From contig PLCM01000015.1 in assembly GCA_003134765.1 (NCBI GenBank), positions 3,421 through 67,420 on the forward strand: 64,000 nucleotides of DNA. The letters run 5' to 3'. The notes below the pieces were generated by a model, which searched no databases, had not been told where the DNA came from, and worked only from the letters and a program-made list of their open reading frames with translations. The number at the start of each line of letters is the position of its first letter. The stretch's first letter is position 1. The position numbers and the translations under genes were made by a program. This document shows, in pieces, positions 8,483 through 63,604 of the stretch. Source of the stretch: Spartobacteria bacterium (GTDB lineage: Bacteria; Verrucomicrobiota; Verrucomicrobiia; Chthoniobacterales; UBA10450).

Positions 8483-8564
8483 GGTAGGGACGCCGCGCTG
8501 CGGTGTCCGCGAACTGCCTCAAGTCGTGGATCGATGGCGGACGGCGCAGCGCGCCGTCCCTACC
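8483..8564. repeat. Double-hairpin palindromic repeat, family A
   Basis: The left arm GGTAGGGACGCCGCGCTGCG (continuing to GTGTCC) is itself a hairpin, GGACGCCGC-GCT-GCGGTGTCC with one G-T wobble. The right arm is GGACGGCGC-AGC-GCGCCGTCC, ending CCCTACC. The two arms are also inverted copies of each other. The same family forms the array at 18371-19036. It lies between divergent genes. Confidence 0.85.
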
Positions 8565-8614
8565 ATGGCAAGAATTCGTGTTGCCCAGCCGGGGCCGCGC
8601 GGCAGCTTGCGGCG

Positions 8615-9358
8615 ATGTCGATCGCTGCGGGAGAAAAAAATCGAACATCGCTGGCCCTTGGATGGGAGGCAGCGAAAGCGAACGCCATTCCCGCTTTCAT
8701 TCTTCAGGGCGCGATGCTGGCGGTTCTCATCTCGTATTATCTGAGCCCGGCCTGCGCGAATTTCCTCAACCGCCTCGCGCATTATAAAGAGCGACACGGC
8801 CTTCTCTTCGTCGTCGTCGCGGCGGTCCTGGCGGGAGCGATCGTGCCGGAGCTGTTCGTGATCCTCTTCTTTCAAAAAGGGCGGCTGCGTACACAAAATG
8901 TCCGCAATCTTGCTTTCACGATCCCGACGTGGGGCGTGGACGGAATCCTGGTCGACCTGATGTATCGCCTGAACGCAGTTTGGTTCGGAGAGGTGGTGAC
9001 CGTCTGGGTTGTCATTGCGAAAATCCTCGTCGACCAGCTCGGTTACAATCCGTTCTTCGCGGCGCCGGCGGAGGTTCTCGTTTACGAATGGAAGAACGAA
9101 GGGTTCTCCTGGAGATCGGTTCGGCGTGCGCTGACCTGGGCGCATTACCAGGACAAGATCGTTCCGACTTTGCTCGCCACCTGGGCGGTCTGGGGGCCGT
9201 TGATGGCGATCATTTATTCGCTGCCCTATCCGTTGCAGTTCCCGCTCTTCAGTATCGCGCTCACTTTTTGGGTTCTCCTCCTGACCTACATGACCAATCG
9301 GTTCGCAGGAAAGATCGAGGCCGATGCACCCCCGGCGCTTTCGATCGCGAAACCGTAG
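8615..9358 (+). CDS. Multi-pass membrane protein resembling the Mpv17/PMP22 family
   Basis: 247 residues from the ATG at 8615, chosen because the longer frame from 8534 runs back into the palindromic repeat. About four hydrophobic segments are visible. The C-terminal half has the layout of Mpv17/PMP22 proteins: KILVDQLGYNPFF (the K..DQ...P element), then a tryptophan-rich stretch TWAVWGPLMAIIYSLP, then FWVLLLTYMTN. Known: Mpv17-family proteins are best described in eukaryotic organelle membranes as channel-like proteins. Whether this bacterial protein is a true homologue is inferred from motif spacing alone. Followed by the gene at 9406. Confidence 0.6.
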   Translation: MSIAAGEKNRTSLALGWEAAKANAIPAFILQGAMLAVLISYYLSPACANFLNRLAHYKERHGLLFVVVAAVLAGAIVPELFVILFFQKGRLRTQNVRNLAFTIPTWGVDGILVDLMYRLNAVWFGEVVTVWVVIAKILVDQLGYNPFFAAPAEVLVYEWKNEGFSWRSVRRALTWAHYQDKIVPTLLATWAVWGPLMAIIYSLPYPLQFPLFSIALTFWVLLLTYMTNRFAGKIEADAPPALSIAKP

Positions 9359-9405
9359 TGCGAGGTGGACGAAGGCGAGGAAGCTGGCATCGTTTGCGTC
9401 CACCA

Positions 9406-9903
9406 ATGAGATCGCACGAAGTTTTTGAGAGAATGTCGCCCGCGCTGGCCGCGCAGATTTTCACTTTTCTGCAGACCGAACAGAAGCCGGTTTACAAAGC
9501 CGCGATCCAGGGCCTCGCGAACCAGCGAAATTTGCGCGGAGTTTTCATCGAGCGGAAACCGCCGGCCGAGCGCTTCCCCTGGATGCAGGCAGCTTTCAGC
9601 CGCAAGATCAGCGAATCGCTCGCCAGCCATGTTCTGCAGGCGTGGCTGCTCGGCGCCCACAAGCAAATGCTCTGCGACTTTCTCGACGCCCTGGAAATCA
9701 AGCATGGCGAGGACGGAACCGTGGACGAACTTCCTCAGGCGCCGCCGAAGGAGAAAATCGCCGCGGCGGTCTCGGGACTTCTCGCAAAATATTCAGGAGA
9801 AAGCGTGGCCGTGTATCTGCATGCGTTCCGAGACATGGACAGCACTGTCCAATGGTCCGCCTTGGATGAAATTCTCGCGGAGGAGCCGCGGCTGAAATTG
9901 TAG
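9406..9903 (+). CDS. Conserved-looking hypothetical protein
   Basis: 165 residues from the ATG at 9406 (MRSHEVFERMSPALAAQ); ATG 9433 is an alternative, and neither has a clear Shine-Dalgarno. The protein looks soluble and mostly helical, with an EKIAAAVSGLLAKYSGESVAVYLH segment near residues 115-140 and an acidic C-terminus. No known domain is recognised. It lies 47 bp after the Mpv17-like gene on the same strand, so the two may be cotranscribed. The frame upstream of 9406 is a shadow of the preceding gene. Confidence 0.55.
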   Translation: MRSHEVFERMSPALAAQIFTFLQTEQKPVYKAAIQGLANQRNLRGVFIERKPPAERFPWMQAAFSRKISESLASHVLQAWLLGAHKQMLCDFLDALEIKHGEDGTVDELPQAPPKEKIAAAVSGLLAKYSGESVAVYLHAFRDMDSTVQWSALDEILAEEPRLKL

Positions 9904-9910
9904 CTCTTAG

Positions 9911-10002
9911 TCCCGGTCATCCCGAGCGAAGTCGAGGGATCCCGTGGAATCACCGTCACGTGTCTCGACGGGGTCCCTCGACTGCGCTCGGGATGACCGG
10001 GA
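9911..10002. repeat. Inverted repeat, family 'TCATCCCGAGCGAAGTCGAG'
   Basis: The left arm TCCCGGTCATCCCGAGCG and onward is matched by CGCTCGGGATGACCGGGA. The arms span about 32 bp each with two or three mismatches. Further copies lie at 17161-17296 and 60272-60461. It fills the start of the 421-bp gap between convergent genes. The stretch 10003-10265 shows no gene, only GC-rich sequence with short GGCGCC-type palindromes. Confidence 0.8.
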
Positions 10003-10265
10003 GTCGCTTAGCGCTAAAAGCGCGCTCGGATCCAAGCCTGAGGTATCGCCCCAGGATTCATGATCGGATGACGAACCGGCGCCGAAAGCGCGATTCAGCG
10101 CATCGTTTCACAGTCAATCCCATACAATTTGGCGGGAATGAATCGCGCTTTCAGCGCTGGCGGTTGGGCGTTGACCGATCCTGGGGCGCCGCCCCAGGCT
10201 ATTTATGAACGCCGCGCCTTTGGCGCTAGACACATTCGCGTAACGCGCGGTCCTCTCACTCATCA

Positions 10266-10324
10266 ACGCCGTCCTCTGCGGCGTCCCAAAATTCTACGGA
10301 CGGGACAGAGCCCGTCCCTCCAAT
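10266..10324. repeat. Double-hairpin repeat, family B (degenerate left arm)
   Basis: The right arm GACGGGACAGAGCCCGTCCC matches copies at 29459-29520 and 63542-63604. The left arm has drifted to CGCCG-TCCTCTG-CGGCG but still forms a hairpin. It ends at the stop codon of the HAD gene and may terminate both convergent transcripts. Confidence 0.65.
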
Positions 10325-11101
10325 TTATTTTGTAAAATAAAGCAGCGCCTCGTGGATCCCGGCGCCGCAGTCTTTCGAGGCAACATATCCGCCGCCCGAT
10401 TTCACCACTTCCTTCACCTCGGGAATGGCGTTCGCCGGACACGCCGGATAACGGGCGAAGCGGCCATCGAGCATCGAGATGTCGTTGTGGTGATCGCCCG
10501 CCGCGAAGATTTCTTCACGCGAAATCTCGAGGAGCCGGGACAACTCCGCGAGCGCCGCGCCCTTGTGGTAATCGGCATGGCAAAACCGCAGGTAAACGGT
10601 GTTTCGCTGATAATGAAACTTCGGCTGTTTTTCGCGCGCCTGATCGATGAACTGGGTCACGCGTTCCAACTCAGCCTCATTCTCCGCAACAAGGCCTTCG
10701 AGACCCGCGCTGTGGTAAAGCAGGCGCGCTTTCGTCTTCCGGTTCACAAAATCGACCACTTCCGCCAGGACCGATTCGGCCGAATGAAAAAGCTCCGCGT
10801 GATCGCGCGCCACCCGTTCGTTCCAATCCCCAAACGGCTCCCATTTGTCACCGTTCGGAGAGGGCCGAAAAACGTCGCGTTCGCTCGTCAGAATGAAATC
10901 GGGATGGATCGGAAACTCGAAATCGGTCAGGCCTGACTCGAGCAGATCGACGGAGCGACCGGTATTGATCGCCCAGAGAACGCCGTCGCCCTGCAGCCTC
11001 TCAATATACTCCATGCATCGCCGATCCAGGACCGGGTCGCTCCCGTGCGCGACGAGGGTCCCGTCGAAGTCGGTGCTGAGGAGCCGAATGTTGGAAGCCA
11101 T
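10325..11101 (-). CDS. HAD-superfamily phosphatase (Cof / sucrose-phosphatase-like)
   Basis: 258 residues. HAD motif I is STDFDGTL (nucleophile D11, acid/base D13), motif II NTGR, motif III a lysine in YHKGAALAEL, and motif IV GDHHNDISM. The mid-protein cap section fits the C2b cap of Cof-type and sucrose-6-phosphate phosphatase-like enzymes. Known: these hydrolyse sugar phosphates or similar small phosphates; the substrate cannot be read from the sequence. It ends against a family B repeat and stands alone on its strand. Confidence 0.85.
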   Translation of the reverse strand: MASNIRLLSTDFDGTLVAHGSDPVLDRRCMEYIERLQGDGVLWAINTGRSVDLLESGLTDFEFPIHPDFILTSERDVFRPSPNGDKWEPFGDWNERVARDHAELFHSAESVLAEVVDFVNRKTKARLLYHSAGLEGLVAENEAELERVTQFIDQAREKQPKFHYQRNTVYLRFCHADYHKGAALAELSRLLEISREEIFAAGDHHNDISMLDGRFARYPACPANAIPEVKEVVKSGGGYVASKDCGAGIHEALLYFTK

Positions 11102-11241
11102 GGCGGTCTGAATCTAGAAGTGGATGCGGGGTCCGCAATCCGCCTTCGCTGAGGCCGGGGCGGATGAAGACGCTTTTCACCTCTTTCGACGGGGAACCTC
11201 AGATGCCTTGCTCGTTGCGGCCGTCAGGCTAAGCTCGGGTA

Positions 11242-11526
11242 ATGAAATCGGCCTACGAACTGGCGATGGAACGCCTCGAAAAAAAGGCGCCGAGCGTCGC
11301 CTTGACCGCCGAGCAAAAGGCTCAGATCGCGGAGATTGACTCGACATTTAAGGCGCGGATCGCAGAGCGCGATTTGTTCCTGAAAGAACAGATCGGCAAG
11401 GCCCGGGAGGCCGGAAATCTGGAAGAGGCAGACACGCTCCAGAAGCAATTGACCATCGACCTCCGGCGGTTGCAGGAAGATGCCGAGGCGAAAAAAGAGA
11501 AGCTGCGGGCCACGTTTTCGGCCTGA
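11242..11526 (+). CDS. Small charged coiled-coil protein, unknown
   Basis: 94 residues, almost wholly helical and highly charged (ERLEKKAPSVALTAEQKAQI, then LQKQLTIDLRRLQEDAEAKK). Heptad-like spacing suggests a coiled coil. No signal peptide, membrane segment or catalytic motif. Codon use matches the neighbours, and the frame is the only sensible one in this stretch. Function not recognised. Confidence 0.6.
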   Translation: MKSAYELAMERLEKKAPSVALTAEQKAQIAEIDSTFKARIAERDLFLKEQIGKAREAGNLEEADTLQKQLTIDLRRLQEDAEAKKEKLRATFSA

Positions 11527-11886
11527 CAACGACAAATTTTGGCGCTTTCGCTCCTGGCTGCCCCCGGGGCGGTGATCCCACAGCAGCATAATGGCACGGC
11601 GAATTGCGCCGCCCGAGGGAGGGGATTCCTCATTTCTGCAGCCTTTTTTGGGGTGGGAAAAATTTTGCGGCAAAACTCTTTTTTTCCTTGCTTCTATAGG
11701 AGCGCCCGCCGTAAAAGCAGGGCCGGCAGGAAAAATTTTCCCAAGGGCATAAGAATTGTTATTGACGTTGAGAATCAATTATGACAAATATGGGAAACAT
11801 AAGAGATACCCGTGACTGCAAAGGTTGTGGAAGCGGAACTCAAAGTGAATCGCAATAACAAACAGGAATCAGGAGAAAATAATAAA
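11527..11886. other. 360-bp intergenic region with an AT-rich leader
   Basis: No gene is evident. The right half is much more AT-rich than its surroundings (poly-T at about 11681-11689; GGAAAAATTTT occurs twice). TTGACG at about 11764 followed 17 bases later by CAAATA is a possible sigma-70-type promoter for the PEP-CTERM-like gene, but the -10 match is poor. An AGGAG lies about 13 bases before the ATG at 11887. The in-frame extension back to 11812 lacks a signal peptide at its start and is probably leader. Confidence 0.35.
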
Positions 11887-12663
11887 ATGATCAAACGGAA
11901 CTTCATCAACGCAGCTATTGTCGCCGCAGGCATGCTGGTAGCGGCGGCTGCCAACGCAACGGTGATCGATTTATCAAGCGGCCCGCCCGCGAGCGGGACC
12001 ATCAACGGCGCGCTTTTTTTCGCTAGCGATCAGCAACCTACGGGCACTGGTATTTTTGACCCGTTCCTCCGCGTGCAACAGCAAGGAAATTCCACATTCG
12101 AGCAAGGCTACAACACGGATGGCGGCTTTCCATTCGACGACAAGAATCCGCACAATTTTCAACATAGTGTGGAACTGTCCTCGCTCGCGCAGTTCAATAT
12201 TAATGGGACCGAGTACTTCAAATTCACTCTCGATGCGAATCAGAGCGGCACAACTGCTCACAAGTTCGCGCTGGATCGGTTGCAGTTCTACACGTCGAAC
12301 GATCCGAGTCAAACGACCCAGGTAGTCAATCCGGATGGAACTCTGAATTTGGGACATTTGGCCTACAATCTCGACGCCGGTGGCAATAACTCCGTTATTA
12401 CTACTGCGACAGGGAGCGGGAAGGCCGATCTCGTTGCTTACCTTCCGGTTTCCGATTTTAACCTGAAGGACAAGTATTTGATTCTCTACTTCGCCTCCGG
12501 TGATACGATTGCGGCCACTGGCGGATTCGAGGAATGGAACGCTGCATCCGGTGCGTCCCCGGTTCCGGAAATGAGCGCTCTTTTCCCGATCGTCGGCTTG
12601 CTCGTGGCGGTTGGTTCGACCAGCATCCTGCGCCGTCGCCGGATGGCCCGGCTGAATTCGTAG
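11887..12663 (+). CDS. PEP-CTERM-like exported protein
   Basis: 258 residues from the ATG at 11887. It has an N-terminal signal peptide (INAAIVAAGMLVAAAANA), a middle of low-charge, Asn/Gly/Thr-rich beta-type sequence, and a C-terminal sorting signal: PVPEMSALFPIVGLLVAVGS followed by LRRRRMARLNS. This is the tripartite PEP-CTERM pattern (short P-E motif, hydrophobic span, basic cluster), with M in place of the usual second P. Known: such proteins are processed by exosortase and associate with exopolysaccharide. No exosortase is in the window. An ideal terminator follows. Confidence 0.8.
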   Translation: MIKRNFINAAIVAAGMLVAAAANATVIDLSSGPPASGTINGALFFASDQQPTGTGIFDPFLRVQQQGNSTFEQGYNTDGGFPFDDKNPHNFQHSVELSSLAQFNINGTEYFKFTLDANQSGTTAHKFALDRLQFYTSNDPSQTTQVVNPDGTLNLGHLAYNLDAGGNNSVITTATGSGKADLVAYLPVSDFNLKDKYLILYFASGDTIAATGGFEEWNAASGASPVPEMSALFPIVGLLVAVGSTSILRRRRMARLNS

Positions 12664-12696
12664 GCAGTTTTCTTTTTTCTTATCTCCATTGTTTGG

Positions 12697-12731
12697 CGGA
12701 GGCGACAGTGATCCTGTCGCCTCCGTTTTTT
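12697..12731 (+). terminator. Rho-independent terminator after the PEP-CTERM-like gene
   Basis: CGGAGGCGACAG, loop tgatc, CTGTCGCCTCCG, then six T. A perfect 12-bp GC-rich stem with a U-tract, 33 bp past the stop codon. Confidence 0.92.
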
Positions 12732-12806
12732 GTACCCGGAAAGTCTTTCGAATCGGCGATTGCCAACGCTGCCTGGGCACGCCTAAGTTAGCGCCCCTTT
12801 GAGATT

Positions 12807-13775
12807 ATGTTTGCGCTCCAACCCGAGATGAAGGTCTTCAGCGGCTCCGCCAATCTGGAGCTCGCGCAACGGATTTGCGAGTGTATCGGCACGCCTCTGG
12901 GCCAGGCCACGATCAGCTCATTTCCGGACGGCGAAACCTACGTCAAAATCGAGGAGAACATTCGCGGCCGCGATGTTTTCATCATTCAGCCGACCTGCCC
13001 GCCGACGAACCAGCATCTCATGGAGTTGCTCATCATGGTGGATGCGGCGCGCCGCGCCAGTGCCGATCGGATCACGGCCGTTATTCCGTTCTTCGGCTAT
13101 GCCCGGCAGGACCGGAAGGATCAGCCGCGGGTGCCGATCACGGCGAAGCTCGTGGCGAACCTGCTCTACGCCGCGGGGGTGAGTCGGGTCCTGACGATGG
13201 ATCTGCACGCGCAACAGGTGCAGGGATTCTTCGACATTCCGGTGGACCATCTCTATTCGATGCCGGTCCTGTTGAAATACCTGCGGACCCGCCTGACGCG
13301 CAAGACTGTGGTCGTTTCTCCCGATGTGGGCGGTTTGAAGATGGCTTCCGCCTACTCGCAGGCGCTGGGCGCGAACCTCGCGATCGTCGCCAAGCAACGC
13401 AAGAGCGCGACGGAAACAAAGGCGCTTTACGTGATCGGCGATGTTGAAGGCTGCGATGTCCTTCTGGTGGACGACCTGACGGAGACCGCCGGCACCCTCG
13501 CGTCCGCCGCGAAGGTCCTGAAAGAGCACGGCGCCTTGCAGATTTACGCGGGCGTCGCCCATGCGGTCCTGGTGGATATCGCGATTCCCCGGTTGCAAAA
13601 ATCCCAGATCGAGGAATTAATAACCACGAACAGCACGCCCGTGCGGCCGGTGGAAGGATTCAAGACCACCGTGCTTTGCGTCTCCGAGCTTCTCGGCGAA
13701 GGCATGAAACGAATCCACAACGACGAATCCGTTTCCTCGCTGTTCAAGATCGATAACGACGGTAAAGGAAATTGA
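12807..13775 (+). CDS. prs: Ribose-phosphate pyrophosphokinase (PRPP synthetase)
   Basis: 322 residues. Makes PRPP from ribose-5-phosphate and ATP for nucleotide, His and Trp synthesis. Visible: the flexible-loop and ATP regions (FFGYARQDRKDQPRVPITAK), MDLHAQQVQGFFDIPVDHLY, and the PRPP loop DVLLVDDLTETAGT, which has TET where DMIDTAGT is more usual. The ATG at 12828 (MKVFSGSANLEL) matches the usual family start better than 12807; neither has a strong Shine-Dalgarno. First gene of a probable operon: rplY begins 3 bp after its stop. Confidence 0.95.
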   Translation: MFALQPEMKVFSGSANLELAQRICECIGTPLGQATISSFPDGETYVKIEENIRGRDVFIIQPTCPPTNQHLMELLIMVDAARRASADRITAVIPFFGYARQDRKDQPRVPITAKLVANLLYAAGVSRVLTMDLHAQQVQGFFDIPVDHLYSMPVLLKYLRTRLTRKTVVVSPDVGGLKMASAYSQALGANLAIVAKQRKSATETKALYVIGDVEGCDVLLVDDLTETAGTLASAAKVLKEHGALQIYAGVAHAVLVDIAIPRLQKSQIEELITTNSTPVRPVEGFKTTVLCVSELLGEGMKRIHNDESVSSLFKIDNDGKGN

Positions 13776-13778
13776 AAC

Positions 13779-14471
13779 ATGGCTAAGCAGGCAAAACTTA
13801 CGGCGGAACCACGAACGGCCCTTGGGCGTTCAGCGGTGCGAAAATTGAAGGCGAGCGGCTCGGTGCCCGCGGTCATGTACGGTTCGAAGGACAAACCGGA
13901 GGCCCTCCAGATTTCCCGGCGCGATATCAACGCGCTGCTCAGTCACGCGGCCGGCGAGAATATTTTGGTGGAACTGGAGATCGCCGGGAAAAGCCGGCTG
14001 GCTCTCGTTCAGGAAGTGCAGCATGCGCCGCTCGGCGGTGCGGTGTTGCACGTCGATTTCCATGCCGTTTCCCAGGATGAAGTGATCCAGGCCGAAGTCC
14101 CGCTCGAGCCGACTGGAATCGCGAACGGGGTCAAGAACATGGGTGGCTTGCTCGAACAGAATCTGCGTTCGCTCGCCATCGAATGTTTGCCGCGCGATTT
14201 GCCGGATGTCCTCCGCGTCGACGTTTCCGCGCTCGACATCGGCGATTCCATTCACGTCCGTGAGATTCAACTGCCCTCCGGTGTGAGCACCCGCGTTCAG
14301 CCCGACCTGACCGCGTTCTCGGTCCTCGCGCCGACGGTGGAGGAAGAGCCGGTGGCTGCGGTTGCGGAAGCTGCGGCGGGGCCGGAAGTGATTCGCGAGA
14401 AGAAGGAAGAACCGGAAGCAGGGGCGACTTCCGGCGGCGCGGCCCCGAAGGAAAAAGAGCAGAAGAAATAG
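13779..14471 (+). CDS. rplY: 50S ribosomal protein L25/TL5 (CTC family)
   Basis: 230 residues, the long CTC form: an N-terminal 5S-rRNA-binding domain (AEPRTALGRSAVRKLKASGS, VPAVMYG) and a C-terminal TL5-type beta domain (VPLEPTGIANGVKNMGG, then VDVSALDIGDSIHVREI). The tail is a low-complexity Glu/Ala/Lys stretch, normal for this family. It starts 3 bp after prs and precedes pth, the common prs-rplY-pth arrangement. Confidence 0.95.
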   Translation: MAKQAKLTAEPRTALGRSAVRKLKASGSVPAVMYGSKDKPEALQISRRDINALLSHAAGENILVELEIAGKSRLALVQEVQHAPLGGAVLHVDFHAVSQDEVIQAEVPLEPTGIANGVKNMGGLLEQNLRSLAIECLPRDLPDVLRVDVSALDIGDSIHVREIQLPSGVSTRVQPDLTAFSVLAPTVEEEPVAAVAEAAAGPEVIREKKEEPEAGATSGGAAPKEKEQKK

Positions 14472-14504
14472 GGGGTTCGAGCGCGCTGCGCCCGATGTTA
14501 TTTA

Positions 14505-14556: not shown

Positions 14557-14562
14557 CATCGC

Positions 14563-17160: not shown

Positions 17161-17296
17161 GTCATTCCGAGCGAAGTCGAGGAACCCCGTTGCGTGTCGA
17201 GAGACGATCCACGGGATCCCTCGACTTCGCTTCGCTGCGCTCGGGATGACAGGTAAGAGCTTTTCCTCCTGTCATTCCGAGCGAAGTCGAGGAACC
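17161..17296. repeat. Inverted repeat (GTCATTCCGAGCGAAGTCGA family) plus a solo arm
   Basis: GTCATTCCGAGCGAAGTCGA at 17161 pairs with CGCTGCGCTCGGGATGAC ending at 17251. A further direct copy of the left arm lies at 17271-17296, immediately upstream of the adh start, and the adh frame runs back through it to 17246. Same family as 9911-10002. Confidence 0.8.
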
Positions 17297-17320
17297 TCTA
17301 ATCTTTCTTGGATTTTCGCG

Positions 17321-18349
17321 ATGAAGGCTGTTCGATTAACTGCAATCGGTTCGCTCCTGGCAGAAACGGAAATTAAGCTGCCGCTCATCGGACCGCGCGA
17401 TGTCTTGATCCGCGTCAAGGCTGCCGGCATTTGCCATTCCGATGCGCACTATCGCGCCGGGGTTTCCCACGTCCCAAACTTGCCGCTCACCCTGGGGCAT
17501 GAAGTTGCGGGTGTCGTGGAAAAAACTGGCGGCGACGTGAGGCATTTCGCGACCGGCGATCGCGTCTGTCTTCATTACCTCGTCACCTGCGGAGAGTGTG
17601 ATTTTTGCCGGGCCGGCAACGAACAGTTCTGTGCGAGGGCCGAAATGATCGGGAAACATCGCGACGGCGGCTACGCGGAATTCATCGCGGTTCCGGAGCG
17701 CAGTGTCTTTCATTTGCCCGAAGAAATTCCGTTCGAGCCGGGCGCGATCCTGATGTGTTCCTCGGCGACCTCACTCCACGCGCTCAAGAAAGCTCGGCTG
17801 CATCCCGGCGAAACCGTGGCGATCTTCGGTGTCGGCGGCCTGGGGATTTCCGCGATCCAGTTGGCCAAACATCTGCAGGCCGGAAAGGTCTTCGCGGTCG
17901 ATATCAATCCGCGGAAGCTCGAGCTCGCGAAACGGTTCGAAGCCATCCCGGTCGACGCCTCAGCCGGTGATCCCGGCGCGCAAATTCAGGAAATGACAAA
18001 TGGTCGCGGCGTAGACGTCGCGCTCGAATTGGTTGGCTTACCGGTCACCATGCGCCAGGCGGTGCAATCGCTGGCGATTCTCGGTCGCGCCGTCCTCGTT
18101 GGTCTCACCCCGGAAACTTTTGAAGTCGCGCCCTACCGCGAGTTGCTTAATAAGGAAGCGGAAATCGTCGGCGTTTCCGATCACCTGGCGAGCGAGCTTC
18201 CGATCCTGCTCGAGCTCGCTCGCACCGGGAAACTCGATTTGGCGCAAGGCATTATCCGCACCGTGTCGCTGGAGGCTCGGGCCATAAACGACGCTTTGGA
18301 CCGGCTCGAAGGTTTCGGGGACGACGTGCGGGCCGTGATTGTTCCCTGA
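17321..18349 (+). CDS. Zinc-dependent alcohol dehydrogenase (MDR family)
   Basis: 342 residues from the ATG at 17321; the longer frame from 17246 is encoded by the intergenic repeat and is rejected. Catalytic zinc site C-H-S-D (GICHSDAHYRAG) with GHEVAGVVE; structural zinc cysteines CGECDFCRAGNEQFC; NAD(P)-binding GVGGLGISAIQLAKHL. An alcohol/aldehyde oxidoreductase whose substrate is not deducible. Its last 109 bp are repeated downstream in the array at 18241-19036, each copy retaining the end ...DDVRAVIVP-stop. Confidence 0.93.
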   Translation: MKAVRLTAIGSLLAETEIKLPLIGPRDVLIRVKAAGICHSDAHYRAGVSHVPNLPLTLGHEVAGVVEKTGGDVRHFATGDRVCLHYLVTCGECDFCRAGNEQFCARAEMIGKHRDGGYAEFIAVPERSVFHLPEEIPFEPGAILMCSSATSLHALKKARLHPGETVAIFGVGGLGISAIQLAKHLQAGKVFAVDINPRKLELAKRFEAIPVDASAGDPGAQIQEMTNGRGVDVALELVGLPVTMRQAVQSLAILGRAVLVGLTPETFEVAPYRELLNKEAEIVGVSDHLASELPILLELARTGKLDLAQGIIRTVSLEARAINDALDRLEGFGDDVRAVIVP

Positions 18350-19036
18350 CCGCGCCTGTTTGCCTTTTTTGGTAGGGACGCCGCGCTGCGGCGTCCGCGG
18401 ATGTTGACGGCGGCGCCTTCTCGGACGGCGCAGCGCGCCGTCCCTACCTTTGGCGCAAGGCATTATCCGCACCGTGTCGCTGGAGGCTCGGGCCATAAAC
18501 GACGCTTTGGACCGGCTCGAAGGTTTCGGGGACGACGTGCGGGCCGTGATTGTTCCCTGACCGCGCCTGTTTGCGTCTTCCTGGTAGAGACGCCGCGCTG
18601 CGGCGTCCGCGGATGTTGACGGCGGCGCCTTCTCGGACGGCGCAGCGCGCCGTCCCTACCTTTGGCGCAAGGCATTATCCGCACCGTGTCGCTGGAGGCT
18701 CGGGCCATAAACGACGCTTTGGACCGGCTCGAAGGTTTCGGGGACGACGTGCGGGCCGTGATTGTTCCCTGACCGCGCCTGTTTGCGTCTTCCTGGTAGG
18801 GACGCCGCGCTGCGGCGTCCGCGGATGTTGACGGCGGCGCCTTCTCGGACGGCGCAGCGCGCCGTCCCTACCTTTGGCGCAAGGCATTATCCGCACTGTG
18901 TCGCTGGAGGCTCAGGCCATAAACGACGCTTTGGACCGGCTCGAAGGTTTCGGGGACGACGTGCGGGCCGTGATTGTTCCCTGACCGCGCCTGTTTACGT
19001 CTTCCTGGTAGGGACGCCGCGCTGCGGCGTCCCGCG
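18241..19036. repeat. Tandem array of about 212-bp units: adh 3' end plus family A double hairpin, about 3.75 copies
   Basis: The unit beginning GGCGCAAGGCATTATCCGCA starts at 18241, 18452, 18664 and 18876. Each unit contains the last 109 bp of adh with the stop codon, a 20-odd-bp linker, and the double hairpin (18371-18448, 18583-18660, 18795-18872, and only the left arm at 19007-19036). The copies differ by scattered substitutions (a linker difference with a 1-bp indel after copy 1, GAGACG in copy 2, CACTGTG and CTCAGG in copy 4), so they are real diverging copies. Long minus-strand frames across it are repeat artefacts. With 19037-19231 this fills the 882-bp adh-topoisomerase gap; no gene is seen. 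Confidence 0.93.
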
Positions 19037-19039
19037 GTA

Positions 19040-19115
19040 TTGGAGCCGGCCCGCCCCCGAGCCGGTCAGTGAGCGATGGTTTGTAATCGACCGGCGCGAG
19101 GGCGCACCGGCTCCA
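19040..19115. repeat. Inverted repeat of family C (GGAGCCGGC... type), drifted
   Basis: TTGGAGCCGGCCCGCCCCCG is matched by CGCGAGGGCGCACCGGCTCC on the other side. Better-preserved relatives are at 25155-25232 and 32673-32750. It directly follows the adh-tail array; the next 116 bp form the leader of the topoisomerase gene. Confidence 0.65.
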
Positions 19116-23510: not shown

Positions 23511-23572
23511 ATTGTAGGACGTTTCTGTGAAACGCCGCCCGGGAAAGGCGTCTGACACAGACGCCCCACAAT
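23511..23572. repeat. Double-hairpin repeat, family D
   Basis: The outer arms begin ATTGTAGGACG and end GCCCCACAAT. The left arm is a hairpin CGTTT-CTGTG-AAACG and the right arm is GGCGTCTG-ACA-CAGACGCC. The arms are inverted homologues with different but internally paired stems. It lies in the 329-bp gap between the convergent HIT and L,D-transpeptidase genes. A CTGTAGCCGCC sequence at about 23434 resembles the end of the 63607-63690 repeat. No gene is seen in the gap. Confidence 0.75.
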
Positions 23573-25154: not shown

Positions 25155-25232
25155 TTGGAGACGGCCTGCCCTCAGGCCGTTGAGAATTAGCGAAGCATTT
25201 CGCCGCCCGGCACGAGGGCGTGCCGGCTCCAG
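25155..25232. repeat. Double-hairpin repeat, family C
   Basis: The left arm is CGGCCTG-CCCT-CAGGCCG and the right arm CCGGCACG-AGGG-CGTGCCGG, bounded by GGAG and CTCC. The two arms are inverted copies with paired compensatory differences. It lies between the convergent lipoprotein and kinase genes. Confidence 0.85.
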
Positions 25233-29458: not shown

Positions 29459-29520
29459 TTGGAGGGACGAGCTCTGTGTCGTCCCAAAATAATGGGACGG
29501 GACAGAGCCCGTCCCTCCAA
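29459..29520. repeat. Double-hairpin repeat, family B (best copy)
   Basis: The left arm GGGACGA...TCGTCCC and the right arm GGGACGG...CCCGTCCC each close on themselves and are inverted relative to each other, bounded by TTGGAGGGACG and CGTCCCTCCAA. Lies between moeA and the MarR gene. Confidence 0.88.
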
Positions 29521-32672: not shown

Positions 32673-32750
32673 TTGGAGCCGGCACGCCCTCGTGCCGGTG
32701 GGAATAGACTTCGCTCTCAAAGACAACGGCCTGAGGGCAGGCCGCCTCCA
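32673..32750. repeat. Double-hairpin repeat, family C, inverted orientation
   Basis: TTGGAGCCGGCACG-CCCT-CGTGCCGG, then ACGGCCTG-AGGG-CAGGCCG and CCTCCA followed by five T. It lies between convergent pgeF and lpxA and probably ends pgeF transcription. Confidence 0.85.
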
Positions 32751-33563: not shown

Positions 33564-34285
33564 AGAACGCCAGCCTCCTTGAAACTGAAATAGGGCGGAC
33601 GACCGTCGGCCGGCGCGCCGATGATGACGTGATCGAGCAATTTTATTTGAAGCAACTCCGCGGCTTCGACCAAACGTCTTGTCAGGCTGTGATCGGATTG
33701 GCTGGGCGAGGGATCGCCCGAGGGATGGTTGTGCACAACGATGATCGCGTAGGCAGATGCGACAACCGCCGGCCGGAAGACGTCGCGCGGATGGGCGATG
33801 CTTTCATTCACGCTGCCTAACGAAACTTGTTCCGTGCCGAGGTGATGGTAACGCGTATCCAGCAAGATGACGCGTAACGATTCCTTGTGCAGCGCGCGCA
33901 TTTCCGCGGCCATGAGCTCGTAGACCAGCTCCGGCGAGTCGAGCTTTTGCCGCGTCAGCCGTTCGTTCGCGAGGCGCTGGCCGAGTTGAAAAGCCGCGAC
34001 CAGGTGAACGGCTTTTGCTTTCCCGATGCCGGGGATTTTTTCGATTTCGGGAACCGTGCAGCGGCTCAATCCTGAGAGCGAATCATATTGTTTTAGAAGC
34101 TGGCGGGCGACGTCGACAGCATTGGCACCCGGCAAGCCTGTTCGCAGGAGAATCGCGATCAATTCCGGGTCCGTGAGCGCCGTCGCCCCGCGCGCGAGCA
34201 ACTTCTCGCGCGGCCGCTCCGCTACCGGCATCTCGCTAATCTTAAATGTGGGAGCGGTCTCCAGGCCGCGATCTGTCGCTTTCAT
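33560..34285 (-). CDS. radC: RadC/YsxA-family JAB-domain protein
   Basis: 241 residues. N-terminal HhH-type region (ERPREKLLARGATALTDPEL, PGIGKAKAVHLVAAFQLG) then the JAMM metalloprotease-like site EQVSLGSVNES...VVHNHPSGDPSPSQSD. The biochemical role of RadC is unsettled. The first 14 or so residues (to about PTF) are encoded by one arm of a palindromic repeat; homology begins at ISEMPVAERPREKL. ATG 34231 is an alternative start. It overlaps lpxA. Confidence 0.92.
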   Translation of the reverse strand: MKATDRGLETAPTFKISEMPVAERPREKLLARGATALTDPELIAILLRTGLPGANAVDVARQLLKQYDSLSGLSRCTVPEIEKIPGIGKAKAVHLVAAFQLGQRLANERLTRQKLDSPELVYELMAAEMRALHKESLRVILLDTRYHHLGTEQVSLGSVNESIAHPRDVFRPAVVASAYAIIVVHNHPSGDPSPSQSDHSLTRRLVEAAELLQIKLLDHVIIGAPADGRPPYFSFKEAGVL

Positions 34286-34322
34286 CCGCTTTTAGTCGCG
34301 ACGCCAAGGTCGCTCCCACATT
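34245..34322. repeat. 78-bp element with perfect 12-bp terminal inverted repeats, overlapping radC 5' end
   Basis: AATGTGGGAGCG (34245-34256) and CGCTCCCACATT (34311-34322) are exact inverted copies, and the homology continues imperfectly inward (GGGAGCGGTCTCCAGGCCGC against GGGAGCGACCTTGGCGTCGC). It spans the radC start codon at 34283-34285 and the gap to the polyprenyl synthase gene. Confidence 0.8.
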
Positions 34323-37432: not shown

Positions 37433-38293
37433 ATGCAGCTTTTGGCGCCGGCGAAGATTAATCTTTCTTTCGAGATCAAGGGCCGACGGGTCGACGGTTT
37501 TCACGAGATCGAAACCCTGATGGCGCCCATTTCGCTCGCGGACCAGCTGACGCTCCAAAGGAGAGAAGATGGCGAGATTCGGTTTTCTTGCGATGACCCT
37601 TCCCTGCCTGCCGGCGCCGACAATCTCGTCGTCCGGGCGGCGAATCTCTTCCGGGAAACGACCGCGATCAGCTGTGGAATCGCAATTGAATTGGAGAAAA
37701 GGATTCCACACGGCGCCGGGCTGGGCGGGGGGAGCAGTGATGCCGCAAGCACGCTGCTTGGTCTCAACGAACTATTCGAGGCTGACCTGGAACAGGGCGA
37801 TCTTCTCAGGCTTGCCGCTCAAATCGGGTCGGACGTTCCGTTTTTTATTGTCCAGTCCGCCGCCATTTGCCGCGGTCGCGGGGAAGTTGTCAGTCCGATT
37901 TCACTGGTGTCGAGTTTTCGTCTTTTGTTGCTCAAGCCGGATTTCGGCGTCCCGACGCCTTGGGCCTATGGAAGATGGAAGGAATCGCGTGAGCTACCGG
38001 AGGTGGACTATTCAGCCCAGGAATTTCGGGGCGTGCGATGCGTAAATGATCTCGAGCGGCCGGTTTTCGAGAAGTTCGTTTTACTCGCGCATCTCAAGCA
38101 ATGGCTGCGGCAGCAGCCGGAAGTTGCAATTGCCTTGATGTCGGGTTCCGGCTCGACCTTGTTCGCGGTTCTGCGGGATGGCACGGACAGTCAAGAATTA
38201 GCGGCGCGCGCCCGCACCCAAATCGATGCGACCCTGTGGACGTGTAATTGTGAGGTCGGTGGATCGAGCGCTCCGCCGCTCGATGCCAAATGA
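37433..38293 (+). CDS. ispE: 4-diphosphocytidyl-2-C-methyl-D-erythritol kinase
   Basis: 286 residues. GHMP kinase of the MEP isoprenoid pathway. Motifs: APAKINLSFEIKGRRVDGFH, the glycine-rich ATP loop PHGAGLGGGSSDAAS, and the C-terminal ALMSGSGSTLFAVL. It could supply isoprenoid precursors to the polyprenyl synthase nearby, although the two are on different strands. Convergent with sdhB; a double hairpin separates them. Confidence 0.95.
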   Translation: MQLLAPAKINLSFEIKGRRVDGFHEIETLMAPISLADQLTLQRREDGEIRFSCDDPSLPAGADNLVVRAANLFRETTAISCGIAIELEKRIPHGAGLGGGSSDAASTLLGLNELFEADLEQGDLLRLAAQIGSDVPFFIVQSAAICRGRGEVVSPISLVSSFRLLLLKPDFGVPTPWAYGRWKESRELPEVDYSAQEFRGVRCVNDLERPVFEKFVLLAHLKQWLRQQPEVAIALMSGSGSTLFAVLRDGTDSQELAARARTQIDATLWTCNCEVGGSSAPPLDAK

Positions 38294-38295
38294 TG

Positions 38296-38341
38296 GCGGC
38301 GAAGCCGCACAAAACAAACATCGCGCGACGGAGCGCGCGAT
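38296..38341. terminator. Two hairpins between convergent ispE and sdhB
   Basis: GCGGC-GAA-GCCGC (38296-38308) and ATCGCGCG-ACGGAG-CGCGCGAT (38320-38341) lie within the 52-bp gap. There is no T-tract, but both are strong stems and could block transcription from either side. The same pair in degenerate form lies at 14505-14556. Confidence 0.55.
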
Positions 38342-38345
38342 CCAC

Positions 38346-56167: not shown

Positions 56168-56175
56168 AGGCCGCC

Positions 56176-57156: not shown

Positions 57157-57203
57157 TTCTGTAGCAGGAGTGCGGCCTTTTGCCAGAAATATACGCAGTT
57201 TGT

Positions 57204-59089: not shown

Positions 59090-59101
59090 GGCCTGCGTTT
59101 T

Positions 59102-59668
59102 TTATTTGCTGCCTGGTTTCACGGCAGGAAGTCCAGCCAGATCCGGCGGCAACGTATCAGCGTCGAACGTTTCCACATTCATTTCGATCAGGGCCACGAA
59201 TGGGCAACCATAATCGGGTCGCTGGCCGCCGCTGCGATCGACGATGACCCCAATCCCCACAACGCGGCCGCCGTTTGCCCGGACGATGTCGATGGTTTCC
59301 TGCACGCGCCCGCCGCGCGTGACTACGTCCTCCGCGACGATGAACCGTTCGTTAGGTCGAATCTCAAAACCGCGCCGCAGGACGAGTCCTCCGGCCTCTT
59401 TCTCGACAAAAATGTGTCGTTTTCCGAGGGCCCGGCCGACTTCCTGGCCCACGATGATGCCGCCGAGGGCAGGGGAGATGACCCCGTCGCATTCCACGCC
59501 GCGCAATTTCTCCGCGAGGCGGCCGCAGACATCAGCGGCAATCTCCGTGTGCTGGAGGAGCAGAGCGCACTGAAAGAATTGCCGGCTGTGCAGACCGGAA
59601 CGCAAAACGAAATGGCCATCCAGGAGAGCGCCAGTCTGGCGAAAGAGCGCGAGCAGGTCGTCACTCAT
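59102..59668 (-). CDS. pyrE: Orotate phosphoribosyltransferase
   Basis: 188 residues from the ATG at 59668 (MSDDLLALFRQTGALLDGHF), which matches the family start. Makes OMP from orotate and PRPP (prs is in the same window). The PRPP loop is FIVAEDVVTRGGRVQET, preceded by FVEKEAGGLVLRRGF. The ATG is directly abutted by a long palindromic repeat (59669-59784), so no Shine-Dalgarno is visible. The epimerase starts 12 bp after its stop. Confidence 0.95.
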   Translation of the reverse strand: MSDDLLALFRQTGALLDGHFVLRSGLHSRQFFQCALLLQHTEIAADVCGRLAEKLRGVECDGVISPALGGIIVGQEVGRALGKRHIFVEKEAGGLVLRRGFEIRPNERFIVAEDVVTRGGRVQETIDIVRANGGRVVGIGVIVDRSGGQRPDYGCPFVALIEMNVETFDADTLPPDLAGLPAVKPGSK

Positions 59669-59784
59669 CTGGGGAGCGCACGCGCCCTCGTGTGCCCGGA
59701 TCGGCGCCCTCGCCGAAACGTCGGAGTAAAGTTCGCGAAGGCGAGGGCGCCTTCGCCAGCACGCGAGGCGCGTGCGCTCCCCAG
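59669..59784. repeat. Nested palindrome abutting the pyrE start codon
   Basis: CTGGGGAGCGCACGCGCC at 59669 is an exact inverted copy of GGCGCGTGCGCTCCCCAG ending at 59784. Inside, GGCGCCCTCGCC and GGCGAGGGCGCC are a second perfect 12-bp inverted pair. The right outer arm is itself a hairpin (GCACGCG-AGG-CGCGTGC). The left edge touches the pyrE ATG (59666-59668). Confidence 0.85.
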
Positions 59785-59822
59785 ATTCGTCATGCCAAGC
59801 TGATGAGATCCGAACATCGGGA

Positions 59823-60242
59823 CTAACCTGACGTATCGCTCGCCGTCTTTCCCGCGGCGCCGCTGTCGTCGAACGCGATCGCCTCGATCTCGACCCGTGC
59901 ATTTTTCGGCAGGGTCGAAACACCGACGGTCGAACGCGCGGGCGCGCTCTCCGTAAAGTAGGTTGCGTAAACTTCGTTCATTTTTTGGAAATCGCCGAAA
60001 TCGGAGAGGAAAACCGTCGTCTTGACCACGTTCGCGAGGGTAAGTCCCTCCGCTTTCAAGATGGCCCTCACACTATCGAGGACCCGCCTGGTTTGCTCGA
60101 CAATGTCTTCGGAAACGATTTGGGCCGTTTTCGGGTCGAGCGGGACCTGCCCGGCGCAAAAAACGAGCGAACCGGCCCGGACCGCCTGAGAATAGGGCCC
60201 GATCGCCGCCGGCGCCTCCGTGGTGGAAATGATCTTCTTCAT
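59823..60242 (-). CDS. ridA: RidA family reactive enamine/imine deaminase
   Basis: 139 residues. Family signatures AAIGPYSQAVRAGSLVFCAG, QVPLDPKT, and the substrate-binding Arg region APARSTVGVSTLPKNARVEI with an E-AIAF end. Known: hydrolyses 2-aminoacrylate and related enamines from PLP enzymes. Slight C-terminal extension (DDSGAAGKTASDTSG). It stands alone between repeats; pyrE is downstream on the same strand. Confidence 0.95.
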   Translation of the reverse strand: MKKIISTTEAPAAIGPYSQAVRAGSLVFCAGQVPLDPKTAQIVSEDIVEQTRRVLDSVRAILKAEGLTLANVVKTTVFLSDFGDFQKMNEVYATYFTESAPARSTVGVSTLPKNARVEIEAIAFDDSGAAGKTASDTSG

Positions 60243-60271
60243 CCGGCGAGCTTAGCGGGAAAAATGGCGCT

Positions 60272-60461
60272 GTCATCCCGAGGCTGGTGAAGCGCGCCGA
60301 GGGACCTCGCACCAAATGACGAATTCCGAATGTCGAAAGAATAACAAAACACGAATGCGGAAAGCAAACCGCCAAGCGTCGCTGTCCGATCTTCGGCATT
60401 CGTCATTCGATCTTCGTCATTCATCGCGGGGTCCCTCGCCGTCTGCGCGGCTCGGGATGAC
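60272..60461. repeat. Compound inverted repeat between ridA and secA
   Basis: Outer arms GTCATCCCGAG and CTCGGGATGAC (same family as 9911-10002) enclose an inner inverted pair, AATGACGAATTCCGAATGTC against CATTCGTCATTCGATCTTCG-type sequence. The inner piece recurs at 23049-23080. It fills most of the 290-bp divergent gap; the secA promoter must lie in or beside it. Confidence 0.8.
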
Positions 60462-60532
60462 ACACTTCCGTAGGCGCGACCGTCCATCCGCGGTTGTTTC
60501 TGGGCGAATTCCGTCAATATTACGGGCTCATC

Positions 60533-63500
60533 ATGGTCGGTTGGATTTTAAAGAAAATACTGGGGTCGAAGAATCAGCGCGAGATCAAGCGTCTCGCGCC
60601 GATCGTCCATCGTATCAACGAGCTCGACGAGCAGTTTAAAGCACTCTCCGACGACGATCTCCGCGCCAAGACCGCCGCGTGGAAATCGGAGCTCGCCGCG
60701 ATGTCCGATCTCGAAGCCCAGTGGAACAAGCTCGATGAGATTTTGCCGGAAGCGTTTGCGGTCGTGAAGAATGGCGCGCGGCGGCTGACGGAGCGTCAGC
60801 AGGAATTCACGGTCTGCGATCAACCGATGACTTGGAACATGGTGCACTTCGACGTGCAGCTCGTCGGCGGGGTTGTTCTGCATCGGGGCCGGATCGCGGA
60901 AATGGCGACCGGCGAAGGCAAGACGCTGGTGGCAACGCTTCCGCTCTACCTGAATGCGCTGACCGGCAAAGGCGCGCATCTGGTGACGGTGAACGACTAC
61001 CTCGCCCGCCGCGACGCGGAATGGATGGGCCAGCTTTACGGTTTCCTTGGCCTGACGACCGGCTGCATCCAGCACGATCAATCGCCGGACGAACGTCGCC
61101 AGCAGTACGGGATGGACATCACCTACGGCACGAACAGCGAGTTCGGTTTCGATTATTTGCGCGACAACGGCATGGCCACCACGCGCGAGCAGCAGGTCCA
61201 GCGCGGATACAATTTCGCCATCGTCGACGAGGTCGATTCAATCCTGATCGATGAAGCGCGCACCCCGTTGATTATCAGCGGGCCTGCGACGGTTTCGACG
61301 CATCAATACGACAAATGGAAGCCGCTCGTGGACCAACTGGTACGCAAGCAAAACATGCTCTGTAACCGGCTGGCGAGCGAAGCAAAAGAGCTTTTTGAAC
61401 AGGGGAAAACCGAAGAAGGCGGGCTCGCGATGTTCAAGGTGAAACTTGGTCAGCCTCGCAACAAACCGCTCCTCCGCATGATGGAGGATCCTGACAAACG
61501 CAAGGCGGTCGACAAGGCCGAGCTCTCGTTTTACCAGGATACGCGCAAGGAAGAATTGTTCGCGCTCAAGGAAGAGCTTTTTTTCACCATCGATGAGAAA
61601 TCGAGTGAGTCCGACCTCTCCGAACAGGGCCGCGCGTTCCTCAACCCGGATGAGCCCGATTCGTTCGTCCTGCCGGACTTGATCAGCGAATTTACGGAGA
61701 TCGATCTCGATCCATCACTTTCCGACGAGCAGAAGGAAAAGGCGAAAGTCGGGCGGCAACAGCATTGCGACGCCCAGGCGGAGCGGATCCACAATATTTC
61801 GCAACTCCTGCGGGCCTATTGCCTGTTTGAGAAAGACGTGGCTTACGTCGTCGAGGAGAACAAGGTCGTCATCGTCGACGAATACACCGGTCGCAAGATG
61901 CCGGGCCGGCGCTGGAGCGACGGATTGCACCAGGCCGTCGAAGCGAAGGAAGGCGTTCAGATCGATCGCGAGACGCAGACCCTCGCCACCATTACGATCC
62001 AGAATTATTTCCGTCTCTATCACAAACTCGCCGGCATGACCGGGACCGCGGACACCGAAGCCGCCGAGTTTCACGATATCTATAAGCTCGACGTAAACGT
62101 GATCCCGACGAACCGGCCGGTGGCGCGGAAGGATGCGAACGATCGCATTTACAAAACGCGGCGCGAGAAATACAACGCCGTCATCAACGAGATCAAGGAC
62201 CGCCACGCAAAAGCGCAGCCGGTCCTCGTCGGCACCGTCAGCGTGGAAGCGTCGGAGTTGCTCAGCCGGATGCTAAAGCGAGAGAAAGTTCCGCACAACG
62301 TTCTCAATGCGAAGTTCCATATGCAGGAGGCCGAGATTGTGCAGCGCGCCGGCCAGGCAGGGACCGTCACCATCTCGACGAACATGGCGGGCCGCGGCAC
62401 GGACATTAAGCTGGGCGAAGGCGTGGCAAACGCCGGCGGACTTTTCGTGATCGGCACCGAGCGCCATGAATCGCGCCGGATCGATCGCCAGCTGCGCGGC
62501 CGTTGCGCGCGCCAGGGCGACCCGGGAGGCTCGCGTTTTTATGTCAGCTTCGAGGACGATCTCATGCGCAACTTTGGCGCTGCCGATCGGATGACGAAAA
62601 TCATGGAGCGCTTTGGTCTTGAGGAAGGCCAGGAACTCGAGCATCCGTGGCTGAATAAATCGGTTGAGACGGCGCAAAAACGCGTCGAGCAGCGCAATTA
62701 CCTCGCTCGGAAGCGCACCCTGGATTTCGACGACGTGATGAACAACCAGCGCGAGGTTGTTTACAACTATCGCAACGACACCATCGATTCTGATGAGCCG
62801 CGCAAGCTCGTTTTCGAAGTGATCGATGAAGCGGTTCCCGGGAAAGTGCAGGAATTTCTCGGCACAGGCGCGGCGGGCGAAGAGCCGAATTACGGGGGCC
62901 TGTTGAACTGGGTGAACGTCACCTTTCCGCTTGGATTGACCAGGGAGAAGGCGCAGTTCGAAACGCGCACGGTCGACGAGAACACGCAATTCCTGATCGG
63001 CAAAATCAAGGAATCGTACGAACGCAAGTCGAGTCACGAAGAACCGACCGCGGTGAAGAGCCTCGAGCGCTACATCATTCTGAACGCGATTGACCGGCTC
63101 TGGCAGGAGCATCTTTACGCGATGGATGCTTTACGCGAGGGCGTCTACCTGCGCAGCTACGCCCAGAAGGATCCGCTCGTCGAATACAAGACCGAAGCCT
63201 ATGAAATGTTCGTCGAGCTGATGGCGAACATTAAGAACGAAGTGTTGCATAATCTCTTCCGCAGCACTTCGAACCTGCAGGCCTTCGAGAATTTCCTTTC
63301 CACCCTGCCGCAGTTCCTTTTGAAGGAGCAGGGTCCCGCGACGGCGACCGGCCCCGTTCCCGGGCGTCACGGCGATCGGATGTCGGCGACGAGCGACGAC
63401 GTTTCGTCGAACGGCGATGGCTCTGAGTTGAAACTCGATTTGGCGCCGGTGCGTCGCGACGTGCCAAAGGTCGGTCGCAACGAGCCCTGCCCGTGCGGCA

Positions 63501-63541
63501 GCGGCAAGAAATTCAAGAACTGCTGCGGTCGCGTGGCGTAA
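60533..63541 (+). CDS. secA: Preprotein translocase ATPase SecA
   Basis: 1002 residues from the ATG at 60533 ([20 protein letters not shown]). Walker [35 protein letters not shown], the HWD region, [16 protein letters not shown], and a C-terminal SEC-C zinc ligand [13 protein letters not shown]. An insert of about 100 residues around 275-400 is present, as in many Verrucomicrobia/Bacteroidetes SecA. Drives Sec export, on which the secreted proteins of this window depend. A family B repeat starts at its stop. Confidence 0.97.
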
Positions 63542-63604
63542 TTGGAGGGACGACCGCCGTGTCGTCCCAAAAATAATGGGGCGGCACGGAGCCCGTCCCT
63601 CCAC
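63542..63604. repeat. Double-hairpin repeat, family B
   Basis: GGGACGAC...GTCGTCCC and the inverted arm GGGGCGG...CCCGTCCC, bounded by TTGGAGGGACGA and CGTCCCTCCA. Starts one base after the secA stop codon and is likely to end its transcript. Confidence 0.85.

Follow-up and report, generated by a model that had tools for sequence, protein, structure and literature searches.

Repetitive extragenic palindromes (REPs) of three families (GI, GII and GIII) are known from Pseudomonas fluorescens SBW25 (PMC3116915), and the Verrucomicrobia have been described as rich in them (PMC3733652). In section 14 of the latter paper it is stated that the preference for heterodimers, i.e. pairs whose arms differ, 'has no obvious explanation', and the guess is made that heterodimers are protected from hairpin-clearing enzymes. 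Classes of TnpA-Y1 transposase with GT[AG]G feet are known as well (PMC6006769), and TnpA-REP of Stenotrophomonas maltophilia reads both foot and loop, which are needed for its activity, the foot helping to choose the cut (PMC8266576). The DNA analysed here, referred to as the window, is a stretch of 64,000 nt from Spartobacteria bacterium (assembly GCA_003134765.1, contig PLCM01000015.1, positions 3,421-67,420, forward strand); with 400 kb more from the source genome it forms a sample of 464 kb. The window carries several families of paired hairpins that are very probably REPINs, i.e. head-to-head pairs of REP hairpins served by REP-associated tyrosine transposases (RAYTs) of the Y1/HUH type. 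REPs as such are known; the data support the addition to them of a GGAG-tagged variant with its own RAYTs.

The arms of these elements share one layout, a tetranucleotide foot and, adjoining it or 1-2 bases further on, a stem-loop whose pairing is perfect or nearly so. The foot is GTAG in family A and GTAG/GTGG in family D, and the canonical GT[AG]G form is found in families A, D, F and H; families B and C carry GGAG on nearly every arm, and RAYTs adjoin them. A family-free scan of the window for a GTAG, GGAG or GTGG foot plus hairpin found 36 arms, compared with a mean of 10.25 (maximum 17) in 20 Markov shuffles of the window, and nine adjacent head-to-head pairs, compared with none in the same shuffles. 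One of the nine (63544-63688) is made up of a B arm and an F arm. An Rfam search of the window returned a tRNA as its sole match.

The same excess was seen in the 464-kb sample, where 157 perfect hairpins (stem of at least 8, loop of 3-6; 314 ends) were counted against 33 in the Markov control. Among the tetranucleotides at the feet of these hairpins, GTAG was the most enriched (24 seen, 0.5 expected), GGAG was next in frequency (20 and 1.4), and GTGG was seen 8 times with 1.2 expected. With these feet, 38 head-to-head dimers were found, compared with four and two when two control sets of three feet were used instead. Both arms had the same foot in 33 of the 38 dimers and the same loop in 21 (shuffled mean 3.8, maximum 9); the same stem was shared in four.

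It had been claimed, in an earlier note made from the window sequence, that base changes in these elements break pairing from arm to arm and keep it within each arm. Covariation was measured for families A and C in seed alignments of nine sequences each (500 shuffles, no register filter), and family B pairing was tested by script on dimers. In A and C the bases covary within each arm, and between arms they do not clearly do so. Within the arms of family C, 97.9% of cells were paired and six pairs had changed on both sides, values that none of the 500 shuffles reached; within those of family A, 98.1% of cells were paired (0/500) and four pairs had changed on both sides (6/500). From arm to arm the corresponding values were 72.2% (31/500) and two pairs (41/500) for C, and 83.4% and no pairs (500/500) for A. 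The outcomes that would have spoken against the claim, an absence of within-arm covariation or covariation confined to the outer stem, did not occur in these two families.

A larger set was assembled from source-genome loci and from genomes of the same genus. It held 93 distinct full-length dimers (A 33, B 28, C 32), of which 21 (A 6, B 10, C 5) were set aside by an in-register filter and 72 (A 27, B 18, C 27) were kept. Watson-Crick pairing in the latter was 0.969 (A), 0.881 (B) and 0.961 (C) within arms, and 0.833, 0.615 and 0.632, respectively, from arm to arm. Where a stem pair differed on both sides between the two arms, it was Watson-Crick in both in 33/33 (A), 32/38 (B) and 70/76 (C) cases. 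Pooled distinct arms were paired in 148/162 (A), 145/175 (B) and 199/216 (C), against shuffled maxima of 137, 129 and 160. Not one of the 72 dimers had identical stems in its two arms; arm loops were identical in 24/27 A and 15/27 C dimers. In A and C, each arm type is inherited along with the other, and the spacer between them is not conserved.

The REP/BIME (bacterial interspersed mosaic element) reading proposed in the earlier note calls for RAYT genes, and these are present. The source genome has seven matches to PF01797, which lies above its cut-off for L004 and L005, and protein searches add further RAYT copies, mostly broken, on contigs C1, C18, C23, C25, C27 and C35. PF01797 alone misses broken RAYTs, and the A and B RAYTs of the source genome came only from the protein searches. 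The MPDHxH motif and the tyrosine of Y...N were invariant in an alignment of 12 RAYTs. The best match of a profile built from these 12 to a solved structure was 4er8, a TnpA-REP (E 2.3e-18); the next matches, entries named 'transposase' (4.5e-07 and weaker), are presumably transposases of the IS200/IS605 type. By this comparison of sequences, the RAYTs described here appear closer to TnpA-REP than to IS200/IS605 TnpA.

In the source genome, RAYTs adjoin repeats of their own family for A, B, C and F, those of A and B being broken; in relatives the same holds for A, B, D and H. An intact family C RAYT (L004, contig C24) lies among C dimers, two before it and one after, and C repeats are found beside the RAYT in all six relatives read (L028-L033; five Verrucomicrobia bacterium and one Candidatus Udaeobacter). 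GGAG hairpins were also seen near a RAYT gene in a seventh relative, from Thermoanaerobaculia. The family F RAYT (L005) is intact in the source genome, and F repeats adjoin those of relatives L130-L133 too. For family A, an intact RAYT of genome G026 (L169/L260) has A dimers on both sides, while the source-genome copy (C35, L262) is split into two frames between A dimers. For family B, RAYTs of the same order were found with the B stem (L106, L109) or with the B foot and loop type (L115, L118), and the source genome retains a frame-broken remnant (C25, L161) adjoining B dimers. In L279 both D stems lie to one side only of the RAYT frame, tail to tail, and H arms flank two RAYT loci (L265, L268). 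No RAYT was found for candidate family E.

Copy numbers of families A, B and C vary widely among species of the genus. They were counted as match rows, with 150 candidates scored per genome and both strands counted, so that a palindrome may match twice. The source genome had at least 150 rows for A, 126 for B and 149 for C. Elsewhere, A gave two rows in G033 and none in G042, B gave two in G026, and C gave 149 in G026 and one in G006. Among the matches listed, a C RAYT of at least 70% identity was present in G000, G026 and G033, which had 149, 149 and 75 C rows; five other genomes had 24, 22, 2, 2 and 1, and G041 and G042 were outside the RAYT matches listed. A perfect link between presence of the RAYT and abundance of its family was considered; it fits C and fails for A in G006 and G041. 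As a separate observation, locus L002 has a Y1_Tnp gene (1468-2451) followed by a frame that resembles, by eye, the C-terminal domain of DnaA, and a DnaA C-terminal-like frame after the Y1_Tnp gene is described for TnpA-Y1 subclass 2.1 (PMC6006769).

The distribution of the GGAG foot follows the RAYTs. On a quick tree of 44 labelled and 17 unlabelled RAYT rows (with long branches for L034, L053 and L169), the GGAG label required four changes, compared with a shuffled mean of 14.2, and none of 500 shuffles gave so few. Starred clades comprised C (7 rows) and B/TTCC (13 rows, of which nine are labelled, all GGAG). Because the foot follows the tree, we read GGAG as a real second REP tag, apparently a variant of the canonical foot. 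No GGAG-tagged REP family with RAYTs was found in the open-licence papers searched. The E. coli TnpA-REP residues W94, Q95 and R104 are named in PMC6006769. In the RAYTs, the position two before the putative Arg104 equivalent, placed by its spacing from the W-Q pair in a mapping of our own, is aliphatic in 24 of 25 GTAG rows and Gln or Tyr in 16 of 17 GGAG rows, a difference confounded by clade history. Four RAYT loci (L124, L126, L127 and L277) have a family-B-like loop (CTCTGT/CTCCGT) yet a GTAG foot, a possible intermediate between tags.

Folding energies predicted with DNA parameters indicate what the difference between arms does to the alternative structure, a single long hairpin formed from arm to arm. 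In real dimers the long hairpin was favoured by a mean of 7.6 kcal/mol in family A (n=32) and 2.6 kcal/mol in family B (n=28), and disfavoured by a mean of 2.6 kcal/mol in family C (n=32). In virtual homodimers it was favoured by 18.4 (A), 21.5 (B) and 17.9 (C) kcal/mol. Relative to these, the long hairpin loses on average 10.6, 19.0 and 20.4 kcal/mol, respectively, through the difference between arms, and the two-hairpin form was preferred in 26 of 32 C dimers and in no virtual homodimer.

A mechanism can be proposed in which each family would have a RAYT of its own that reads its folded single-stranded hairpin. This RAYT, a nuclease with a single Y1/HUH domain, would cut and rejoin at the feet so that the pairs are copied around the genome. 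Foot and loop would be the recognition signal, and both arms of a family would for that reason keep their type. The stem need only pair, so it would drift by compensated double changes and the arms would diverge, weakening the long arm-to-arm hairpin; the pair would then stay in, or near, a form that the RAYT can read. It is thus recognition, cleavage, mobility and a selection keeping the arms different, whether it disfavours the long hairpin or favours the small ones, that we infer. Relatedness of their transposases accounts for the likeness of design among the families.

The most serious alternative is that the difference between arms arose by neutral drift inside a copying unit and was not selected. 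The joint inheritance of the A and C arm types agrees with it, as does the existence of a few homodimers (4/38). The complete absence of identical stems from the 72 dimers argues the other way, as do the same habit, judged by reading, in other RAYT clades and the large energy effect predicted, although these points are not decisive. We regard drift as a real possibility, if the less probable of the two accounts of the arms. The REPIN assignment itself faces weaker competitors. Several elements lie directly 3′ of stop codons (63544, after secA; 10324/10325; and 32675, at convergent frames), and REPs elsewhere are thought to work as terminator or stabilizing hairpins (PMC3733652), as would be expected if the elements were transcription terminators or mRNA-stabilizing hairpins selected at the RNA level. 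Terminators, however, require neither a GTAG/GGAG foot, nor a family loop type, nor an inverted partner with a different stem, nor copies beside a transposase, and a 212-bp tandem array containing the element would be unexpected for them; we consider this explanation very unlikely. Miniature inverted-repeat transposable elements (MITEs) of a classical DDE transposon, with terminal inverted repeats palindromic by chance, would also have inverted arms, many copies and the unconserved spacer seen in A and C. Their terminal repeats, however, would covary with each other, as the A and C arms do not clearly do, and the gene adjoining the repeats here is a Y1/HUH RAYT, so that the probability of a MITE origin seems negligible.

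Several points weigh against identification of the elements as active REPINs with a selected arm difference. The evidence is all comparative, and it is from their dispersal that the pairs appear to be mobile. The counts of within-arm pair types are less telling than the other covariation measures, with 18/500 shuffles for C and 49/500 for A attaining them; the in-register filter, which dropped 21 of the 93 dimers, favours paired arms; and compensated cells are not independent events, because copies share descent. Loops of the two B arms are identical in only 3 of 18 dimers, loop type alone being common to them. In 29/32 A and 21/28 B dimers the prediction still gives the long hairpin as the most stable form, and the unchanged two-hairpin energy in the A and B comparison is so by construction. 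Families A and B may be relics in the source genome, since their RAYTs are broken there, and A rows are many in G006 (104) and G041 (125), where the best match to the A RAYT has 38 and 42% identity, respectively.

RAYT domains were also found inside housekeeping genes. The recG gene of the source genome (C41:153446-156145, L006/L064; on the contig of the window and outside it) is a frame of 900 aa that carries, between RecG domains, an in-frame RAYT insert of approximately 210 aa; the Y1_Tnp match (residues 407-520) scores 21 bits, just below the Pfam cut-off of 23. In the same genus the insert is present in G019, G006 and G033, and at a contig end in G042; recG is without it in G026, G041 and G039. 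Among the matches listed, 20 further long-frame Y1 loci were chosen, and host domains surround the Y1 domain in all 20 (loci L079-L098 and L289-L308 are from relatives in the order). With the source recG, the 21 loci represent recG (6), carB (7), metH (5, at two sites), alaS (2) and valS (1), a few being cut by contig ends; both metH sites are filled in L092. Among 117 genomes of the order, 25 contained matches to the recG-borne RAYT at E of at most 1e-15. There were 33 such matches, 31 of them in open frames of at least 769 aa; the carB and valS copies were not among the 33. Twenty of the 33 were fetched and read, and lie in recG (9), alaS (7), thrS (3) and metH (1). A Pfam scan of nine of these confirmed the hosts, with Y1_Tnp passing 1e-4 in four. 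An HUH plus tyrosine pattern matched 25 nested RAYT domains; the exceptions are L094, without the tyrosine by eye, and L301, in which no HUH was matched.

The recG-borne RAYT is inherited and under purifying constraint. Among G000, G019 and G006 the ratio of nonsynonymous to synonymous rates (dN/dS) was 0.034-0.075 for the RAYT core and 0.061-0.087 for RecG. For the REP-coded linkers (59-61 codons) it was 0.36-0.56, with a synonymous rate of 0.38-0.57 against 1.1-3.5 elsewhere (where dS is near saturation), and by this low rate the linkers look conserved as DNA. Identities of RecG and RAYT were 93 and 58% for G037-G003, 89 and 50% for the source genome and G033, and 75 and 81% for G033-G004, with a correlation of 0.36 over 171 pairs. 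Since the two histories disagree, the recG site appears to have been reoccupied or to have exchanged its occupant; the discordance may also stem from recombination between recG genes. The hairpin flanking the insert (GGGGAGC + GCAGGC...GCCTGC) has 12 matches in 464 kb, one at recG and several in inverted pairs, so a dispersed REP family goes with the recG-borne RAYT. In an AlphaFold2 model of modest confidence (mean predicted local distance difference test score 69.9, predicted template modelling score 0.55), the insert folds as a block bounded by strands 343-347 and 581-585, and linkers of low confidence occupy 349-400 and 541-576. An intein was considered and rejected, no intein family being among the Pfam matches and splicing motifs being absent, the latter by eye only.

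Homing-like spread of the nested RAYTs is possible. On the fuller proposal, a RAYT clade would persist almost only as a translated in-frame domain of RecG, AlaRS, ThrRS and MetH, and CarB and ValRS would house a second type. Each enzyme would have a single recurrent insertion site, except MetH with its two, and REP-encoded linkers would frame the domain. Purifying selection, for which RecG is the case tested, would maintain the domain, which would be replaced at its site between lineages by an intein-like homing without protein splicing; the RAYT of a dispersed GGAG-tagged family would then be, in the source genome, a domain of RecG. We find the case for and against this proposal to be evenly balanced. 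The open-licence literature searched yielded no RAYT or Y1 transposase in frame in recG, alaS or essential genes, or with inteins.

The elements located in the window are listed in Table 1. All those attributed to families A-D in the earlier note were present. The family A elements reported at 18371-19036 are real, although they are parts of one tandem array and not four independent insertions, and of the drifted B copy only the right arm passes the scan, the left arm failing it. The design common to four families was seen in at least two more (F and H). Such multiplicity is not in itself unusual, because a genome with several RAYTs can be expected to have several REP families, as does SBW25 with three (PMC3116915). 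Family D copies were found at three places in 464 kb. Within the window, none of the five frames checked with Pfam is interrupted by an element.

Table 1. Paired-hairpin elements and related features of the window
Feature	Positions	Structure	Remarks
Family A REPIN	8484..8563	GTAG + GGACGCCGC-GCT-GCGGTGTCC / GTAG + GGACGGCGC-GCT-GCGCCGTCC	Head to head
212-bp tandem array	18238..19037	3.8 copies, 98% match	Unit: 3′ end of dehydrogenase frame (17246-18349) + family A REPIN
Family A dimers inside the 212-bp array	18372-18447, 18584-18659, 18796-18871		Lone left arm at 19008-19032
Family B REPIN	29461..29518	GGAG foot, loop type C[TG]C[CT]GT, stems GGACGA.. and GGACGGG	
Family B REPIN	63544..63603		Directly 3′ of secA stop codon (secA 60494-63541)
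Drifted family B copy	10266..10324		Right arm (10298-10321) intact; left arm without foot
Family C REPIN	25157..25230	GGAG + ACGGCCTG-CCCT-CAGGCCGT / GGAG + CCGGCACG-CCCT-CGTGCCGG	
Family C REPIN	32675..32749		Opposite orientation; between convergent frames
Drifted family C REPIN	19041..19115	Different stems, largely compensated	Overlaps predicted start (19076) of topoisomerase frame
Family D REPIN	23514..23569	GTAG + CGTTTC-TGT-GAAACG / GTGG + GGCGTCTG-TGT-CAGACGCC	
Family F REPIN	63607..63689	CTGTAGC foot, TGT loop	Absent from the earlier note
Family H REPIN	38259..38345	GTGG + ATCGAGCG-CTCCGC-CGCTCGAT / ATCGCGCG-CTCCGT-CGCGCGAT	Absent from the earlier note
Candidate family E inverted pair	34246..34321	GTGGGAGCGG...	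Single copy in 464 kb

Two other kinds of repeat were observed in the window. A palindromic repeat, TCATCCCGAGCG...CGCTCGGGATGA, with no evident GTAG/GGAG foot, occurs at 9911-10002, 17170-17238 and 46520, and long inverted repeats of a different design occur at 60295-60441, 4029-4172 and 59652-59801.

With families and their RAYTs traced in one genus, a direct test can be made of the heterodimer preference left unexplained in 2013 (PMC3733652), and a lowering of long-hairpin stability by the arm difference would offer an answer to it, in line with the guess made in that paper. GGAG, a naturally occurring alteration of the guide tetranucleotide that tracks the RAYT clades, makes a recognition code readable from native pairs. 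Of all the findings, the in-frame RAYT domains most deserve to be pursued; if active, those in essential enzymes would reveal how loss is avoided by a transposase that is not known to make copies of itself.

The resemblance to the REPINs of SBW25 (PMC3116915) is close. In both, the inverted REP pair is the copied unit, several families share a genome with their own RAYTs adjoining, and tandem clusters with flanking DNA, compensatory changes and 'clover' versus long-hairpin folds are seen. The elements described here differ in phylum, stems and loops, in having GGAG feet and in that nearly all examined pairs are heterodimers; there are also more families, six of them with a RAYT traced in the source genome or its relatives. 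The GTAG REPs of Di Nocera et al., which include those of Opitutus terrae (Verrucomicrobia), likewise have a foot, short stems and head-to-head dimers of different stems, with tyrosine transposases adjoining and REPs within repair and tRNA-synthetase genes (PMC3733652). The tags given there are GTAG and CGTC, 'ggag' occurring 0 times in the main text, and no whole RAYT within a gene is described in the parts consulted. Rickettsial palindromic elements, as cited in the same paper, are in-frame palindromes in housekeeping genes comparable to the REP linkers around the recG-borne RAYT; they are short repeats, whereas the insertion here is an entire, conserved RAYT domain. Finally, family A resembles the REPs of TnpA-REP/REPtron Sm of S. 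maltophilia in that a perfect stem, closed by a GCT loop, follows immediately on GTAG, and differs from them in the sequence of the stem (PMC8266576).

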